A DNA stretch of 57,239 bases, taken from contig JAFUPI010000021.1 of the NCBI GenBank assembly GCA_017481285.1, forward strand, positions 1 through 57,239. Direction: 5' to 3'. The notes beneath the pieces are model-generated. The model searched no databases. It was not told the DNA's origin and was given only the letters and a program-made list of their open reading frames with translations. Positions within the stretch are counted from its first letter, which is position 1. Every line of letters starts with the position of its first letter. Below are positions 79 to 52,841 of the stretch, piece by piece. A program made the translations under genes and the position numbers. Source of the stretch: Agathobacter sp. Its GTDB lineage: Bacteria > Bacillota > Clostridia > Lachnospirales > Lachnospiraceae.

Positions 79-137
79 CCATTTTTAAGATGCATTTTCA
101 TTTGAGTATATTTGACCTTGCATTTAGTTTTTCATTT

Positions 138-208
138 AAAGCAAAAAATAGGAATATGATGGGAAGCCTTACGCTAGTACAGCGACCATCATATTCCTAT
201 TTTGCTTT
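138..208 (-). terminator. Long hairpin terminator of prfC with a conserved loop
   Basis: Arms 138-162 and 186-208 pair over about 23 bp, apart from two extra A residues in one arm. They enclose a 23-nt loop at 163-185. On the minus strand the hairpin starts at the prfC stop codon and is followed by a T-run, so it can act as an intrinsic terminator. Read on that strand, the loop matches the loop of the hairpin at 24586-24662 at 20 of 23 positions, although the stems are unrelated (see findings). Confidence 0.8.
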
Positions 209-1799
209 AATTTCTACCAAATTCTGTTAATACAAGACCTTTATTTCTATCTAAGGTCATACCAACGCTCCATGCATTGATAAAGAGAAGCAATGGATTG
301 CCCTTCATATCAATAACCTTCTTCATATCAGAGGTTCCTGTTAAGTTATCAACATCCACTTCTTCTTTATTTTCAATCCAACGAATGTGTTCGTATGGAA
401 GATTTTCCAGACGAATTTCTACATTGTATTCACTTTCCAAACGGAATTTCAATACGTCAAACTGAAGCACACCTACTACACCAACGATGATTTCTTCCAT
501 GCCGCCCTTATATTCCTGGAAAATCTGGATCGCACCTTCCTGAGCAATCTGTGTTACACCCTTTACGAACTGCTTACGTTTCATGGAATCCACAAGACGT
601 ACACGTGCAAAATGTTCTGGTGCAAAGGTAGGAATACCTTCGAACTGGAACTTATCCTTGGCAGTTGTCAAGGTATCACCAATGGAGAAAATACCTGGGT
701 CAAAAATACCAATAATATCGCCAGCATATGCTTCTTCTACCATCTTACGCTCATCCGCCATCATCTGCTGTGGCTGGGAAAGCTTAATCTTTTTATTTCC
801 CTGTACATGGAATACTTCCATGCCAGCATCGAACTTACCAGAACAGATACGCATAAATGCAATACGGTCTCTGTGGTTTTTGTTCATATTCGCCTGAATC
901 TTGAATACGAAAGCAGAAAAATCTTCATTAAATGGATCGATGATTCCTGTATCCGCCTTACGTGCCAATGGTGAATATGTCATCTTTAAGAAATGCTGCA
1001 AAAAGGTTTCTACACCAAAGTTGGTAAGTGCAGATCCAAAGAATACTGGTGATAATTCACCCTTTGATACCAGGTCGATATCAAATTCCGCACTTGCTCC
1101 ATCTAAAAGTTCGATTTCATCCATCAGCTGGTCATACTTATCCTGACCGATTTTTTCGATTAAAGCTGGATCATCGATATCTACTAACTCTTCTTTCCCT
1201 TCCTTCGTACCCTTAAAGGTCTCTGAGAAAAGGCGAACCTGTTTTGTATTTCTGTCATATACACCCTTAAATTCCTTACCAGAACCGATTGGCCAGTTCA
1301 CTGGACAGGTTTCGATACCAAGTTCTTTTTCGATTTCTCCCAATAAGTCAAAGGTATCATTCGCATCACGGTCCATTTTGTTAATAAATGTAAAAATAGG
1401 AATATGACGCATTACACAAACCTTGAAAAGTTTACGAGTCTGTGCTTCTACACCCTTGCTACCATCGATAACCATTACTGCAGAATCCGCAGCCATCAAG
1501 GTACGATAGGTATCTTCCGAGAAGTCCTGATGTCCAGGTGTATCCAAAATATTGATGCAGTATCCATCATAGTTGAACTGAAGTACCGAAGAAGTAACGG
1601 AAATACCTCTCTGCTTTTCGATCTCCATCCAGTCGGAAACTGCATGACGTGCGGTTGCCTTACCCTTTACACTTCCGGCTAAATTGATGGCACCACCATA
1701 TAACAGGAATTTTTCTGTTAAAGTAGTTTTACCAGCATCCGGATGGGAAATAATGGCAAAGGTACGTCTTTTTTCTATTTCTTTTCTTAAGTTGCTCAC
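207..1799 (-). CDS. prfC: Peptide chain release factor 3 (RF3)
   Basis: Translational GTPase of the cytoplasm that recycles RF1/RF2 from the ribosome after peptide release. The G1 motif SHPDAGKT lies near residues 18-25, followed by DTPGH (G3) and NKMD (G4), then the EF-G-like domains II and III of RF3. I chose the GTG start at 1799 because GGAGG lies 8 nt upstream and the protein then begins VSNLRKEIEKRRTFAIISH, giving 530 aa, close to the 529 aa of E. coli RF3. The in-frame ATG at 1820 has no ribosome binding site. It has its own promoter, so it need not be read from the spoIIIA operon upstream. It ends directly in the conserved-loop hairpin at 138-208. Confidence 0.95.
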   Translation of the reverse strand: MSNLRKEIEKRRTFAIISHPDAGKTTLTEKFLLYGGAINLAGSVKGKATARHAVSDWMEIEKQRGISVTSSVLQFNYDGYCINILDTPGHQDFSEDTYRTLMAADSAVMVIDGSKGVEAQTRKLFKVCVMRHIPIFTFINKMDRDANDTFDLLGEIEKELGIETCPVNWPIGSGKEFKGVYDRNTKQVRLFSETFKGTKEGKEELVDIDDPALIEKIGQDKYDQLMDEIELLDGASAEFDIDLVSKGELSPVFFGSALTNFGVETFLQHFLKMTYSPLARKADTGIIDPFNEDFSAFVFKIQANMNKNHRDRIAFMRICSGKFDAGMEVFHVQGNKKIKLSQPQQMMADERKMVEEAYAGDIIGIFDPGIFSIGDTLTTAKDKFQFEGIPTFAPEHFARVRLVDSMKRKQFVKGVTQIAQEGAIQIFQEYKGGMEEIIVGVVGVLQFDVLKFRLESEYNVEIRLENLPYEHIRWIENKEEVDVDNLTGTSDMKKVIDMKGNPLLLFINAWSVGMTLDRNKGLVLTEFGRN

Positions 1800-1874
1800 C
1801 TTGAGTTCCTCCAAAAACATCTAACTAAAGCTGTCTTCCACGTCAAACACACATGGAAAAATGCACCGTTTCAT

Positions 1875-7649: not shown

Positions 7650-9014
7650 CTATTCTCCTTGAATTCCTTTTTCTATCTTTTTATACACTGTCATTCGCAT
7701 GGTTATATAGCTTGCAAGTCCACCAATTACGTTGGAAATTGGTTCTGCCAAAAATACTCCTGTTACACCGAATCCTACCATTGGCAATAAGAGTGTCAAC
7801 GGCACTACGATAATCGCCTTACGAAGTAATGAAAAGAATATGGCATGCTTGGCATCTCCCAATGCTTGAAATGTGGACTGACCTGCAAACTGAAAGGACA
7901 TGAACACAAAACCAAAGAAGTATATCTTTAGCATTTCTACTCCTACTTCCATCATCTGCATATCGTCCGAAAATATGCCAAACCAAAACTCTGGAAAAAG
8001 CACTACCAATATCCATGCAGCCATAGTATAGGCGGTTCCTATAAATGTGTTAAAGCGAATTCCAGATTTTACTCTTGTATATGCCTTTGCTCCATAATTA
8101 AAGCTGATTACTGGCTGCGAACCGCTGATAATTCCACTGATTGGCAGATTAAATATCTCGCGTACGGAATTGGCTACCGTCATGACACCTACATAAATGT
8201 CGCCGCCATATCCTTGCAACGTAGAATTACAGACTACCTGCACCAGACAGTTTGTTCCAGACATAATAAAATTGGAAGTGCCCAGCTTGAAGATGTCTTT
8301 TGTAATATCCTTATTGATTCGAATACTCTGTATTTGAAGTGGAATAATAACCTTTTTCCCAAAAAGAAATTTTAAAACCCATATTGCCGAAACCACTTGG
8401 CTAATTACGGTTGCAAGTGCCGCCCCTGCAACACCCATATCAAACACAAAAATAAACAAAGGATCCAGTACAATATTTATAATGGCTCCAATGATAACGG
8501 AAAACATACCAATTTTTGGGAATCCCTGTGCATTGATATAACCATTCATACCAGTCGTAGTCATGGAACAAATCGTCCCAATTAGATAAATATTCAAATA
8601 CTGACTAGCATAAACAAAGGAATCTTCACTTGCTCCAAAAGCAAACAAAATGGGTTTGGAAAACACATATCCAATTGCTGTCAAAACTACGGAACTCAGC
8701 AGCAAAAGCGCAAAAGAATTACCCATAATCCTTCTTGCTTTTTCTTCATTTCCAGCACCTCGTTCCATGGAAAATAGAGGTACCCCGCCCATTCCAAACA
8801 GACCGGAAAATGCCATAATCAAGCTAACGATTGGAAAGGTTAATCCGACACCAGTTAATGCAAGACTGCTTCCATCTTCCATATGCCCTATGTAAATTCT
8901 GTCTACTACGTTGTACAAAAGCTGTACTAGTTGTGCAATTGTAAGTGGTACCGCCTGAGTGATAATACACTTCCAGACGGGGCCTTTTGAAAAATCGTTC
9001 TTTTGTGATTCCAT
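7650..9014 (-). CDS. MATE family efflux transporter
   Basis: Twelve-helix multidrug/oligosaccharide exporter type, 454 aa from the ATG at 9014 (MESQKNDFSKGPVWKCIITQAVP). The N-terminal PLTIAQLVQLLYNVVDRIYIGH motif and the two MatE repeats are clear. An extension to 9059 would run into the -10 box and is unlikely. It probably uses an Na+ or H+ gradient; substrate unknown. First gene of a three-gene operon. Confidence 0.92.
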   Translation of the reverse strand: MESQKNDFSKGPVWKCIITQAVPLTIAQLVQLLYNVVDRIYIGHMEDGSSLALTGVGLTFPIVSLIMAFSGLFGMGGVPLFSMERGAGNEEKARRIMGNSFALLLLSSVVLTAIGYVFSKPILFAFGASEDSFVYASQYLNIYLIGTICSMTTTGMNGYINAQGFPKIGMFSVIIGAIINIVLDPLFIFVFDMGVAGAALATVISQVVSAIWVLKFLFGKKVIIPLQIQSIRINKDITKDIFKLGTSNFIMSGTNCLVQVVCNSTLQGYGGDIYVGVMTVANSVREIFNLPISGIISGSQPVISFNYGAKAYTRVKSGIRFNTFIGTAYTMAAWILVVLFPEFWFGIFSDDMQMMEVGVEMLKIYFFGFVFMSFQFAGQSTFQALGDAKHAIFFSLLRKAIIVVPLTLLLPMVGFGVTGVFLAEPISNVIGGLASYITMRMTVYKKIEKGIQGE

Positions 9015-23198: not shown

Positions 23199-24548
23199 AT
23201 GAATTATCAGGAATTTAAAAATGCCGTGGTAAAATATGCCACAGCAAATGAAATAAAAGACTACGAGCTTTACTATACAAAATCAGATGAAACTAGTGTA
23301 GAAATCTTCCAAACCGAAGTAAAAGGCTTTAACTCATCCAACAATTTGGGAATATGCTTCCGTTGTATCCTCAATGGACAGACCGGTTATGCTTCCACCG
23401 AAAATATGACCGAAGAAGAAGCTGAATCCATCGTGCTTCGTGCGATTGAAAACGCAAAATCCTTAGAAAGCGAAACTCCTTCTTTCATTCATAAGCAAGG
23501 CGATACTTATCTTTCATATGAAAAAGAAGAAATTGTCACTCCTTCTGCCTCTACTCTGGTAGATTTTGCTTTAGATTTACAGAAAGAAATCTATGCACAG
23601 GACGAACGTGTTATTGATGGTACACAAGCTGTTGCTGGATTTGGTTCTTTTGAAAAAGCTATTTTCAACTCAAATGGACTTGACCTGGCAGATAGCGGTA
23701 AATTTGATTATACCTATGCAATGGCAATTGTTACTGACGGAAAAGAAATGTATAATGGCATGGAAGTAAAATCTGGAAAAATGGCTGACTTTGATAAAAC
23801 AGAAGTCGCAAAAGAAGCTGTAAAAGATGCGTTATCTACCATTGGATATACTTCTGTAGACAGTGGTGCTTACACAGTAGTATTCTCTAACAAAGTAATG
23901 GCAAGTCTACTCAGTGTATACTCTTCTGTTTTCTCTGCAGAAGCTGCACAGAAAGGCTTATCTCTCTTGAAAGATAAAGAAGGCGAAATCATCGCTTCCG
24001 ATATCATTACACTGACCGATGATCCACTATATAAAGATGCTTTGAGCAAAGCCACCTTTGATGATGAAGGTGCTGCTACCTATACTAAGAATATCATTGA
24101 GAACGGTAAATTCACTACATTTCTACACAATCTTGCCACCGCTGCAAAAGCAGGCGTTAAAACCACAGGAAACGGCTATAAAGGCTCTTATTCCTCTCCT
24201 GTAGGCATCAACCACTACAGCTTTTACATTAACCCTGTAAAAGGCAGCTTAGAAGACTTATTTGCAGAAGCAGGAAATGGTATTTATATCACAGAAGTGG
24301 AAGGTATGCACGCAGGTGCGGACCCAATTTCTGGTGATTTCTCTCTTTCTTCTGGCGGTTTCCGTATCGAAGACGGCAAGAAAACCACACCTGTAAAAGG
24401 TATTACTATCTCTGGAAACTTCTTACAACTGATGAAAGATATCTCATCTGTTGGCGAAGACTTAAAGTTCAATCCTTTTGCACTTAGTGCACACAGATGC
24501 GGTTCACCATCCGTATTGGTAAAAAATATCAATATTGCAGGTAAATAA
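23199..24548 (+). CDS. tldE: TldE/PmbA family protein
   Basis: Non-catalytic partner of TldD, 449 aa. It shares the fold but lacks the HExxxH site; characteristic blocks are GICFRCILNGQTGYASTENM near residue 48 and GMHAGADPISGDFSLSSGGF near 368. It is expected to form a heterodimer with TldD, where the family's two subunits enclose the active site. Ends 37 nt before the long hairpin at 24586. Confidence 0.92.
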   Translation: MNYQEFKNAVVKYATANEIKDYELYYTKSDETSVEIFQTEVKGFNSSNNLGICFRCILNGQTGYASTENMTEEEAESIVLRAIENAKSLESETPSFIHKQGDTYLSYEKEEIVTPSASTLVDFALDLQKEIYAQDERVIDGTQAVAGFGSFEKAIFNSNGLDLADSGKFDYTYAMAIVTDGKEMYNGMEVKSGKMADFDKTEVAKEAVKDALSTIGYTSVDSGAYTVVFSNKVMASLLSVYSSVFSAEAAQKGLSLLKDKEGEIIASDIITLTDDPLYKDALSKATFDDEGAATYTKNIIENGKFTTFLHNLATAAKAGVKTTGNGYKGSYSSPVGINHYSFYINPVKGSLEDLFAEAGNGIYITEVEGMHAGADPISGDFSLSSGGFRIEDGKKTTPVKGITISGNFLQLMKDISSVGEDLKFNPFALSAHRCGSPSVLVKNINIAGK

Positions 24549-24585
24549 CAAGTAAATTTAATAAATTAGTTTTTCTAAATTTCAC

Positions 24586-24662
24586 GAACGCGTCCCGATA
24601 TTTATTCATTTATCGCTGTATTAACATAAGGCTTCTAAATGAATAAATATCGGGACGCGTTC
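24586..24662 (+). repeat. Long perfect hairpin with conserved 23-nt loop
   Basis: Arms 24586-24612 and 24636-24662 are a perfect 27-bp inverted repeat. The 23-nt loop (24613-24635) begins TCGCTGTA and ends TAAGGCTTC. It follows tldE and has a modest T-run after it, so it may terminate transcription. The same loop (20 of 23 nt, same length) occurs in the hairpin after prfC at 138-208, also in the sense of the upstream gene, but with a different stem. Confidence 0.85.
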
Positions 24663-24696
24663 TTATTTTTAAATATAAATTTACTAAATAATCCTG

Positions 24697-26544
24697 TTAT
24701 TTCTGGCAGGTATATTTTTTCATACCATATAAAAGAGTCATTCCACCAACTGCAAGCAACATCATCCACATTGCAACTGATGTGGCATCACCTGTATCAG
24801 GTACAAGGCCAGTATTTGTATCAGCTGCTTCTGCAATGGTATAGATACTGAAGTGGTCTGTTGTAAATACTGCATAATCACCGTCTAGTTCTACTTCATA
24901 TGGTACAATTTCATCATTTTCATCTACATAATAAGCAATTAAATCATCCTTGCCTTTTAATGCATCTGATATTGGAATCTTAACTTCGAATGTTCCATTA
25001 TCTAACTTAGTTACATAGTCACCTTTTACTTCAGAATATAATGTAATATCGAAGGTTTCATGTTCTTCTACATCAAGAATATTCATAATCTTGTCATATT
25101 CTGTACCGCTGGTAAGTTTATCTACAGCTACTCTAGTATCCAATGGAACAGATGAGTCTGTAGAAGAAACAGTTACATTGGTAGTAATGTCAGCAGATGC
25201 ATAGGTAGGAGTAATCATCTTATCGCTATCTTTCATTACGATAAAACGATATGTTTCATCATCATTTGTTATTTCAAACCAACATCCGCCAGCTGCATCC
25301 TGGAGAAATGCTAATTCACTTTCTGGATCATTGTATAAATCCAAATATTCTTCTTTTTCTCTTACGTGACGCTCATAATTATTCTGAACTGGATAATATT
25401 CCGTATTCATATAATCATAATACTCAGTATTTAATACTTGTGCCTCTTCATTAGCTGCATTAAATAACGGGGTTTTCTCAGTAATTATATTTTGCTTCTC
25501 TGCTTTTTCAGCTTCATATTGAGCAATCAAATTCTGATGATCTGCAAGGTCTGTTGCATTTGGATTCATAGCAATATAGTTTTGCTCGCCCTCAATCATT
25601 GAGGTAAGTTCGTCTATTCTTACTTGTGCCATACTAATCTCTGAATAATACTGATTAGCAGCATCCTGTTTTGCTTGATAAGCTGCATATAATCTATCTT
25701 TTTCTGCATCATATACTGCAAGCTCTTCTGCAAGTTCTTCTATAATTGGATCCATGAAATCCATAGCTTTACTTAAATCATCACCACCGAGTTTAACCGT
25801 TACTTTTCCTTCTCCAACATAATCGTCAACTCGTTTCTGAACCGCTGCCAATAATTCTTCTGGACTATCACCTGTTTCATCTGGAACATAGATAATATGC
25901 TCTGCTTTTGTTCCAAGTGCTGTATCTACATAGTATGCCACATCATCATGCATAAGCCATGCGACACCCATTCTTTCAGTCATAAAAATACAATCAAGTC
26001 CAGCTCTATTGTCTACAAAAAATTTGTAGTTTTTATTACCTAATAAAGCTTTTAATTCACTAGAGAAATTATCTAATCCACCACCAGATTCATCTACATT
26101 CTCAGTTCCAGTTCTTGTTAACCAGTAATTGATAAGTTCCATATCTTTTACATGGAAAAATGTTTCTTCCTCTGGAAATGTAGTTACAAGTGCATCAATA
26201 TCGTTCTTTACATTTTCATCATAATTAAATACGATTTCAACATTATGCGTTTCGTCTACAAATTCACCAACCAATGTAACATCACATGTAGATGTTTCTT
26301 CATCATATGTAAAATCATCCACCCAAACAGTTTCGTCTGTCATCAATAAGACATATTCGAACAAATACATGCCTTTTTCAAATTCTGTTGTAGGAACAAT
26401 CGTATTAACTACATACTGTCCTTCTTCGTTCAAAATCGCTTTGAACTCATCGCTCATCTCTTCTTCCGTTGCAAATGCGGTCATTGGCAGCAAGGTAACC
26501 AGCATCATAGCTACTAAAAGAATTGATAAAATTCTTTTTTTCAT
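24697..26544 (-). CDS. Secreted sortase-anchored surface protein
   Basis: 615 aa. A signal peptide (about residues 1-25, MKKRILSILLVAMMLVTLLP) is followed by an acidic extracellular region. A coiled-coil rich segment lies at about 270-420, and a beta-rich part at about 440-570. The C-terminus has VPDTGD, a hydrophobic helix and a basic tail, which is the layout of a sortase signal of the (L/V)PxTG(D) type seen in gut Clostridia. I do not recognise an enzymatic domain. Divergent from an Xre regulator with which it shares a promoter region. Confidence 0.75.
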   Translation of the reverse strand: MKKRILSILLVAMMLVTLLPMTAFATEEEMSDEFKAILNEEGQYVVNTIVPTTEFEKGMYLFEYVLLMTDETVWVDDFTYDEETSTCDVTLVGEFVDETHNVEIVFNYDENVKNDIDALVTTFPEEETFFHVKDMELINYWLTRTGTENVDESGGGLDNFSSELKALLGNKNYKFFVDNRAGLDCIFMTERMGVAWLMHDDVAYYVDTALGTKAEHIIYVPDETGDSPEELLAAVQKRVDDYVGEGKVTVKLGGDDLSKAMDFMDPIIEELAEELAVYDAEKDRLYAAYQAKQDAANQYYSEISMAQVRIDELTSMIEGEQNYIAMNPNATDLADHQNLIAQYEAEKAEKQNIITEKTPLFNAANEEAQVLNTEYYDYMNTEYYPVQNNYERHVREKEEYLDLYNDPESELAFLQDAAGGCWFEITNDDETYRFIVMKDSDKMITPTYASADITTNVTVSSTDSSVPLDTRVAVDKLTSGTEYDKIMNILDVEEHETFDITLYSEVKGDYVTKLDNGTFEVKIPISDALKGKDDLIAYYVDENDEIVPYEVELDGDYAVFTTDHFSIYTIAEAADTNTGLVPDTGDATSVAMWMMLLAVGGMTLLYGMKKYTCQK

Positions 26545-35546: not shown

Positions 35547-35593
35547 ATTTTAGTACAGATATTTACTAAATTCAATAGTAAATATTTGTACTA
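35547..35593. promoter_or_regulatory. Promoter with two tandem operator dyads
   Basis: Leftward promoter TTGAAT (35570-35575), 17 bp, TAAAAT (35547-35552). Dyad 1 TTAGTA-N8-TACTAA (35550-35569) lies on its spacer and -10. Dyad 2 TAGTA-N8-TACTA (35576-35593) lies just upstream. The two dyads are mirror images with one mismatch. TATACT (35596-35601) may be the -10 of the divergent regulator. Confidence 0.75.
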
Positions 35594-35629
35594 ATTATAC
35601 TGTTACTATCAAATAAAGGTGGTATTTAT

Positions 35630-47927: not shown

Positions 47928-47986
47928 GTCGACACTATTCGACACACACTTTCTATATTTTATGCCCTGTGTCGAATAATGTCAAA
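47928..47986 (-). promoter_or_regulatory. Promoter of lgt-spo0E flanked by Spo0A boxes
   Basis: Promoter TTGACA (47980-47985), 17 bp, TAAAAT (47957-47962). Spo0A boxes (TGTCGAA): perfect at 47938-47944 (reverse) and 47970-47976; one mismatch at 47928-47934 (reverse) and 47980-47986. Each pair has a 10-bp period; one pair covers the -35 and spacer, the other the start of the transcript. Confidence 0.75.
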
Positions 47987-52700: not shown

Positions 52701-52841
52701 TCAAAATGAAAAAGGTGCAGTCAAAACTACACCTTTTTTTACGAATAAAATAGGTGGGTGACAATCCACATCTCCTAACAAAGGGCGACGGCCGCCTGTT
52801 CCGTCCTCAGATTTTATTCATAATATTTATATCTCTTTACA
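52701..52841 (-). ncRNA. Candidate structured small RNA
   Basis: About 140 nt. P1: GAATAAAAT (52811-52819) with ATTTTATTC (52743-52751). P2: AACAGGCG (52793-52800) with CGCC (52784-52787) and TGTT (52777-52780), loop GCCGT. P3: GTGG (52766-52769) with CCAC (52754-52757). ACGG (52801-52804) can pair with CCGT of the P2 loop as a pseudoknot. An intrinsic terminator (52711-52736) ends it. No reading frame with a ribosome binding site. I recognise no known RNA family. Confidence 0.65.

Follow-up and report, generated by a model that had tools for sequence, protein, structure and literature searches.

A dispersed family of hairpins at gene 3' ends in two Agathobacter genomes, with a conserved 23-nt loop on arms probably renewed by template switching

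Two hairpins behind prfC and a tldE-like gene

The window analyzed here is the whole stretch of 57,239 nt on the forward strand of contig JAFUPI010000021.1 (Agathobacter sp., GCA_017481285.1). It carries one hairpin behind prfC and another behind a TldE/PmbA-like metalloprotease gene, referred to below as tldE. The features of both loci are the following:

136..162, minus strand: right arm of the prfC hairpin (in the orthologue of the sister genome, a new arm is inserted before the old one)
163..185, minus strand: 23-nt loop of the prfC hairpin, a short element of type A
186..210, minus strand: left arm of the prfC hairpin, on the side of the gene
207..1820, minus strand: prfC, peptide chain release factor 3, the host gene upstream of this hairpin
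23199..24548, plus strand: host of the other hairpin, a TldE/PmbA-like metalloprotease gene whose NCBIfam matches all fall short of the cut-offs
24514..24570, plus strand: left outer arm of the tldE hairpin, forming an imperfect palindrome with the right outer arm and entering the 3' end of tldE
24571..24585, plus strand: left foot, TTTTCTAAATTTCAC in this copy, TTTTCTAAATACTAC in the consensus of 40 copies
24586..24612, plus strand: left inner arm, 27 bp, Watson-Crick paired with 24636-24662
24613..24635, plus strand: terminal loop, or head, 23 nt, conserved, with an inner mini-hairpin TAT-TAAC-ATA
24636..24662, plus strand: right inner arm
24663..24677, plus strand: right foot, TTATTTTTAAATATA in this copy, TTACTTTTTGGAAA in the consensus of 40 copies
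24678..24731, plus strand: right outer arm
24697..26544, minus strand: convergent ORF of 615 aa, without NCBIfam match; its end lies 61 nt past the loop

The initial annotation described the tldE hairpin as a perfect 27-bp stem with a 23-nt loop, which agrees with our coordinates. For the prfC hairpin, its loop length of 23 nt stood, and its stem, given as about 23 bp, has 18 perfect base pairs (145-162 with 186-203) that extend to 25 pairs over a 2-nt bulge. The stems of the two hairpins are unrelated to each other, and their loops differ, as had been noticed, at positions 9, 12 and 14, all three by transitions. Since the genome holds 18 copies of the loop and the expectation for the loop pattern in shuffled windows was 0.00 (largest count 0), a coincidental likeness of the two loops was ruled out.

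In an anchored alignment, the tldE palindrome extends over 99 nt to the left and 96 nt to the right with matches at 77 of 102 aligned positions. The part that lies in the coding sequence scores 9 when taken alone, compared to a shuffle maximum of 13, and is thus not above shuffles in this copy. The region 24540-24710 folds strongly both as RNA (z = -9.98) and as DNA (z = -11.38). Neither element received a call in a terminator scan, which permits loops of only 3-8 nt and thereby excludes hairpins of this kind. No Rfam family reached its gathering threshold at the hairpins, where only miRNA-precursor models matched below threshold, and a known Rfam RNA family was therefore ruled out.

Elsewhere in the window, two long inverted repeats without the conserved loop were observed at 47931-47983 (16 bp at 94%, 21-nt spacer) and 35550-35594 (19 bp at 95%, 7-nt spacer), and a skipping-rope RNA (RF02924) lies at 52747-52815 on the minus strand (42.4 bits, gathering threshold 36.7).

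Distribution, anatomy and placement of the family

A lack of further loop copies, or copies without flanking inverted repeats, had been named in advance as the outcome that would speak against a recognized loop. We found 18 copies of the loop sequence TCGCTGTAYTRRCRTAAGGCTTC in this genome at up to 3 mismatches (reversed control, 0), every one of them between inverted arms. The covariance model that had been suggested as a check was built from 42 copies and yielded 20 matches in this genome, 42 in a sister genome, Agathobacter sp. RGIG2097 (goat colon; G040, the same as G052; metagenome-assembled by its title), and none in the 60 other genomes of the genus (Infernal, stricter filters). Three of these 62 matches, located on sister contig C31 and duplicating copies on C34, were left out of later counts, leaving 59 distinct hairpins. 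The duplicated region (L155 and L135) is present on two contigs and contains three type A hairpins spaced at about 3-4 kb. The two main genomes are draft assemblies, the one studied here (G000) being 71% complete; 16 of its 20 sites are orthologous to sister sites by at least one flanking gene. The uninterrupted arm at the loop measures 13-30 bp in 17 of these 20 copies; in the other three, a mismatch already follows after 6-9 bp.

A search of 84,980 genomes with the exact core pattern returned 45 stretches, 22 in RGIG2097 and 23 elsewhere. Those in RGIG2097 have long stems except for two rows (an indel in L038 and an extra loop remnant of L034). A wide distribution was rejected: 22 of the 23 other stretches were re-scanned (L056 did not come up) and gave crude stem scores of 0-9, without long stems. 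Two viral matches to the core pattern were dismissed with stem scores of only 0 and 3.

The copies fall into two types. Type A, represented by the prfC copy, has a short conserved stem around AAAAGGAATATAATGG, while type B, represented by the tldE copy, is built in two storeys. Most copies have two storeys, the inner stem (about 26 bp) being separated from the outer arms by a mismatched foot. Of 48 type B copies, 41 have an inner stem of 24-31 bp (mode 26), and type B stems have little in common beyond the 5-10 nt beside the loop, whereas type A copies do share their stem. The foot consensus, taken from the 40 of 48 copies with a stem of 22-30 bp, is loose, each position being held by 15-37 of the 40 copies; its T-rich right half and its left half are nearly complementary yet mismatched, between two better-paired storeys. 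Palindromes reach at least 60 nt on both sides in 43 of the 59 copies (anchored alignment). After removal of 14 copies with a palindrome score below 30, the outer flanks exceeded the 95th percentile of mismatched left/right controls in 34 of the remaining 45. The mini-hairpin in the loop covaries: among 41 distinct rows, positions 9 and 14 are C-G in 20, T-A in 16, T-G in 1 and unpaired in 4.

The loops had also been said to read in the sense of the upstream gene and to sit at its 3' end; in the family, 50 of the 62 copies place the loop 15-70 nt after a same-strand stop codon. According to simple ORF calls, the genes around the 57 distinct copies with ORFs on both sides are convergent in 35 cases, tandem on the gene strand in 15, tandem on the opposite strand in 6 and divergent in 1. 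In the convergent group, the same calls put 30 of the 35 loops closer to the same-strand gene (median distances 42 and 66 nt).

Paired arms, orthologous slots and other heads

Changes in the inner stems are nearly always paired. When 14 bp of the stem are aligned over 42 copies, two-sided changes are seen in 13 of the 14 pairs and purely one-sided changes in none, and 99.1% of the cells are paired. Over the first 20 stem positions of the 59 distinct copies, the 1180 pairs comprise 1139 Watson-Crick, 8 G.U and 33 mismatched ones. Selection on a sense RNA predicts that G.U exceeds A.C; among 1079 inner pairs of the 45 long (type B) copies, 2 are G.U, 10 A.C and 2 other non-Watson-Crick pairs. 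The outer arms have 103 G.U and 77 A.C among 2363 pairs (55 and 37 beyond 45 nt), and this excess counts against arm copying because it runs in the direction predicted by selection on sense RNA.

Comparison of the 16 orthologous pairs at 24 ungapped stem positions yielded 87 positions changed on both arms and 23 changed on one, the latter (23 of 110) counting against the arm-copying reading. Where the left arms differ between the species, the inner right arm agrees with the left arm of its own species 112 times, with that of the other species 9 times and with neither 7 times. The outer arm gave a more moderate signal (94 own, 49 other, 67 neither), and the 49 of 210 positions that follow the other species likewise speak against the reading. 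The three type A pairs add 7, 5 and 2 to the inner counts and hardly show own-species matching; they fit poorly, with 4 own and 4 other at prfC and 1 and 1 at C68. In the C59/C7 pair, the coding ends differ only synonymously (read by eye), and parts of each right arm follow their own version.

Several orthologous slots carry traces of earlier states. In the sister, three pieces follow one another behind prfC: a new right arm that matches the present-day left arm, 18 nt of a second loop, and the retained old arm in the form of 21 nt identical to the right arm in our window. In one case (L270 and sister C35:771) the loop is reverse-complemented between the orthologues, with 18 of 22 positions alike after turning. 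At C11:125331 the sister has an element together with an inverted copy of the CDS end, and only a plain short hairpin is present here (L266). For 27 queries with unshared sites, the orthologous slot was readable in 15 and not in 12. The readable slots hold an ordinary short hairpin in 11 cases (by eye), a head of about 95 nt in two (L278 and L282), a headless hairpin on the same foot as the loop elements in one (L268) and the inverted loop in one. The outer arms at L278 also look homologous to those of the sister, and coordinates suggest two further slots with the large head. In G010 and G050, which have a full-length tldE orthologue and no loop, the tldE slot is occupied by ordinary short hairpins.

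The slots L280, L286, L276 and others contain plain hairpins behind genes that share stems resembling GGGCTGTCGCAAA...TTTGCGACGCCC, perhaps a stereotyped terminator of the clade. An 'inverted terminator' in the rpmB slot of this genome and G050 was given little weight as proof of fold-back copying, since similar hairpins recur in the clade and the gene order of the sister seems different at rpmB.

The reach of the outer arms into coding sequence was assessed by scoring inverted copies of the final 60 nt of each gene, with flanks of equal length and 25 shuffles as control. Of the 51 element sites that have an upstream gene on the same strand, 24 scored above the best shuffle (6 of 17 in this genome and 18 of 34 in the sister); of the 33 orthologous slots without the loop, taken from G050 and G010, 2 did so. 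Some of the G050 slots bear hairpins with other heads. Measured against the 95th percentile of mismatched gene-flank pairs, the result was 28 of 51 versus 1 of 33, and an earlier run with unequal flanks (263 and 190 nt, 15 shuffles) gave 26 of 51 versus 1 of 33. The 27 of 51 sites without a CDS copy above shuffles count against fold-back copying.

Several heads besides the 23-nt loop stand on a similar foot. One of them, about 95 nt long and conserved in a sequence of its own, is present in 14 of the 62 genomes of the genus, with 17 matches here, 32 in the sister and at least 68 in G016. Among the copies examined, those from this genome, the sister, G050 and G023 usually have this head on the same foot, and those from other genomes have it on a different one. 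We analyzed 32 copies of this head (32 of 35 matches, leaving out three repeats in overlapping loci; they come from 24 of 30 loci and seven others), of which 24 have arms of at least 15 bp and 21 have outer scores above the 95th percentile of the controls. Nine face-to-face pairs of large-core hairpins, about 190-300 bp apart and some of them near contig ends, were found among the matches listed. The sequence of this family reads GCGGACACTAAG...CTAAGTGCCGACG or GTTACTAA...TTAAGTAACGACG with a core of about 95 nt. Another repeat of both sister genomes has a perfect 15-bp stem, CATGAGCCATGCAAA / TTTGCATGGCTCATG, and a 30-31-nt loop. Examples of the two repeats are:

L124:971-1125, L133:5488-5640, L137:409-568, 699-848 and 8566-8706, L143:916-1076, L211:585-734: large-core hairpins
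L114:114-173, L125:6310-6369, L126:3301-3360, L137:6043-6103, L157:2-61: repeat with the 15-bp stem

Behind rpmB of G050 (L190:1391-1454), a hairpin with 21-bp arms has a different 22-nt loop, TCTCCGTTCTTCGCAAAGTCGT, of which no second copy was found in the loci examined.

Likeness to known systems, origin and meaning

The closest parallels come from several directions. As with REP and BIME sequences, there are many intergenic palindromic copies, and the large-core relatives occur in pairs of opposite orientation. REPs of E. coli measure 14-40 nt according to PMC12306157; the elements described here are far longer, and their loop rather than their stem sequence is conserved (type B; type A shares its stem). 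We rejected membership of REP/RAYT, as type B has neither the size nor the common stem. The Y1 transposase domain (TnpA_REP/IS200-type, PF01797) had no match in G000 (71% complete), G052, G050, G010 and G016 and seven in G043; four of the five negative genomes carry the hairpin families, and a REP/IS200-type agent was rejected because PF01797 was not found in these five close genomes.

Integron attC sites have the core boxes RYYYAAC / GTTRRRY, and an attC site was rejected because the foot consensus (TTTTCTAAATACTAC / TTACTTTTTGGAAA, read by eye) is without such boxes. Intrinsic (Rho-independent) terminators share with the elements the position behind genes, the G+C-rich base of many inner stems and the T-rich right foot. 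What sets the elements apart from them is the conserved loop of 23 nt, the long inner stem and the second storey of outer arms. The RHE and DHE hairpins of sponge and fungal mitochondria are likewise dispersed, probably mobile and intergenic (PMC2800124), but the sponge RHEs of that paper have conserved stems and variable loops, the reverse of what we see. In the open-licence literature, no paper was recognized as describing the 23-nt-loop family.

Hairpins altered by template switching (quasipalindromes) show the same kinds of change, namely homogenized arms, double substitutions, loop inversion and insertion of stem halves. As argued in PMC8794818 and PMC8604942, such switching can give rise to hairpins, repair them, change both of their arms in one step, turn the loop around and add stem sequence. 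Arms homogenized per lineage (the two-armed and own-species counts above) and, in one orthologous pair, an inverted spacer were both found here. The hairpins of those papers are scattered and mostly short, whereas the present ones form a dispersed family with a conserved head and foot and arms mostly of at least 60 nt that reach into genes. The same sources tie loop inversion to switching between strands rather than to fold-back of one strand, which counts against a pure fold-back origin.

A common head at 62 places (59 distinct), positions shared by two species and arms that change together in each lineage are direct observations. In our proposal, they belong to a repetitive hairpin element that is specific to this lineage, lies at the 3' ends of genes and owes the making and renewal of its arms to template switching; we put the probability of this reading at about 0.68. 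During DNA synthesis, a strand would fold back at an existing hairpin and use its upstream arm, which extends into the end of the gene, as template for the downstream arm; synthesis would then return to the normal template. Such switching would lengthen and refresh the palindrome, and an occasional switch between strands could invert the loop. The element would replace an ordinary terminator-like hairpin and act as a 3'-end hairpin itself, for both genes where these are convergent, a use that its position makes likely.

Fold-back copying explains the matching arms, the host-derived outer arms and the direction from the gene to the downstream arm. The asymmetric foot between well-paired storeys argues against it in part, since copying cannot simply run through the foot each time. 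The looseness of the foot consensus, the lack of calls in a terminator scan restricted to short loops, the 6 tandem cases with the loop on the opposite strand and the draft state of the two main genomes also weigh against the reading as a whole. Template switching also leaves the constancy of the loop, and less strictly that of the foot, to be explained by a function, most simply recognition by a putative factor. The initial annotation had suggested that the loop is recognized while the variable stems only need to pair. The conserved loop and the variable, paired stems are borne out; going beyond that suggestion, pairing seems to be kept mainly by copying of the arms in DNA and not by stepwise compensation, as favored by the few inner G.U pairs, the inverted CDS-end copies, the old arm beside the new one and the inverted loop. 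Recognition of the loop by a putative protein, RNA or mobile-element enzyme would be plausible. Head and foot, more conserved than the stems, may be the signals for such a factor, possibly one that spreads or exchanges heads.

A structured RNA in the 3' untranslated region, serving as terminator or mRNA-stability hairpin with a protein-bound loop and foot and with stems kept paired by stepwise compensatory substitutions, would account for the location after stop codons, the strong folding, the conserved loop with its covarying inner pair, the foot consensus and the G.U excess of the outer arms. We consider it quite unlikely, because G.U is nearly absent from the inner stems and rarer there than A.C, one-sided changes do not occur in the alignment of 42 copies, and inverted copies of coding sequence, a retained old arm and an inverted loop are present. 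That the hairpins arose by chance or as palindromic chimeras of metagenome assembly is very improbable: although both key genomes are draft assemblies and one sister region appears twice, the expectation for the pattern is nil, and two species with diverged genes share 16 of 20 sites.

Ends or relics of transposons, whose insertion would itself copy the flank inversely (for example, by joining a single-stranded hairpin to the 3' end and extending the opposite arm), would fit the sharing of slots, and of a similar foot, by different heads, the presence or absence of elements between the sisters and the face-to-face large-core pairs. We regard this origin as unlikely: neither an autonomous copy nor an enzyme was identified, the Y1 transposase was not found in the five close genomes named above, 16 of the 20 sites here are common to both species, and orthologous arms differ in a paired way, so that copying must have gone on after insertion. 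A bolder and rather doubtful idea is that of a new class of modular fold-back insertion elements, in which swappable heads (the 23-nt loop, the core of about 95 nt and others) would stand on a lineage-specific mismatched foot, a dedicated machine acting on folded single strands would place them behind genes, and each insertion would prime inverse copying of the 3' end of the gene before it.

The SbcD model exceeded its cut-off in 2 of 9 genomes (G043 and G044) and stayed below it in the hairpin-bearing G000, G052, G050 and G016 as well as in G010, G015 and G041, where neither hairpin model had a match. The same 364-aa reading of an Mre11-like protein, below every cut-off, is present in G052 and G000, the G052 one having been scanned. 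Loss of a palindrome nuclease would therefore be at most permissive, as SbcD also falls below the cut-off in hairpin-free genomes and an Mre11-like protein is present.

Returning to the template-switching element, its 59 distinct hairpins with 16 orthologous pairs are a natural set for testing template switching, copying out of coding sequence included, directly against stepwise compensation. Covariation in a stem need not imply selection on an RNA. The pattern also points to a putative factor that would hold back change in the loop and the mismatched foot more than in the stems that separate them.
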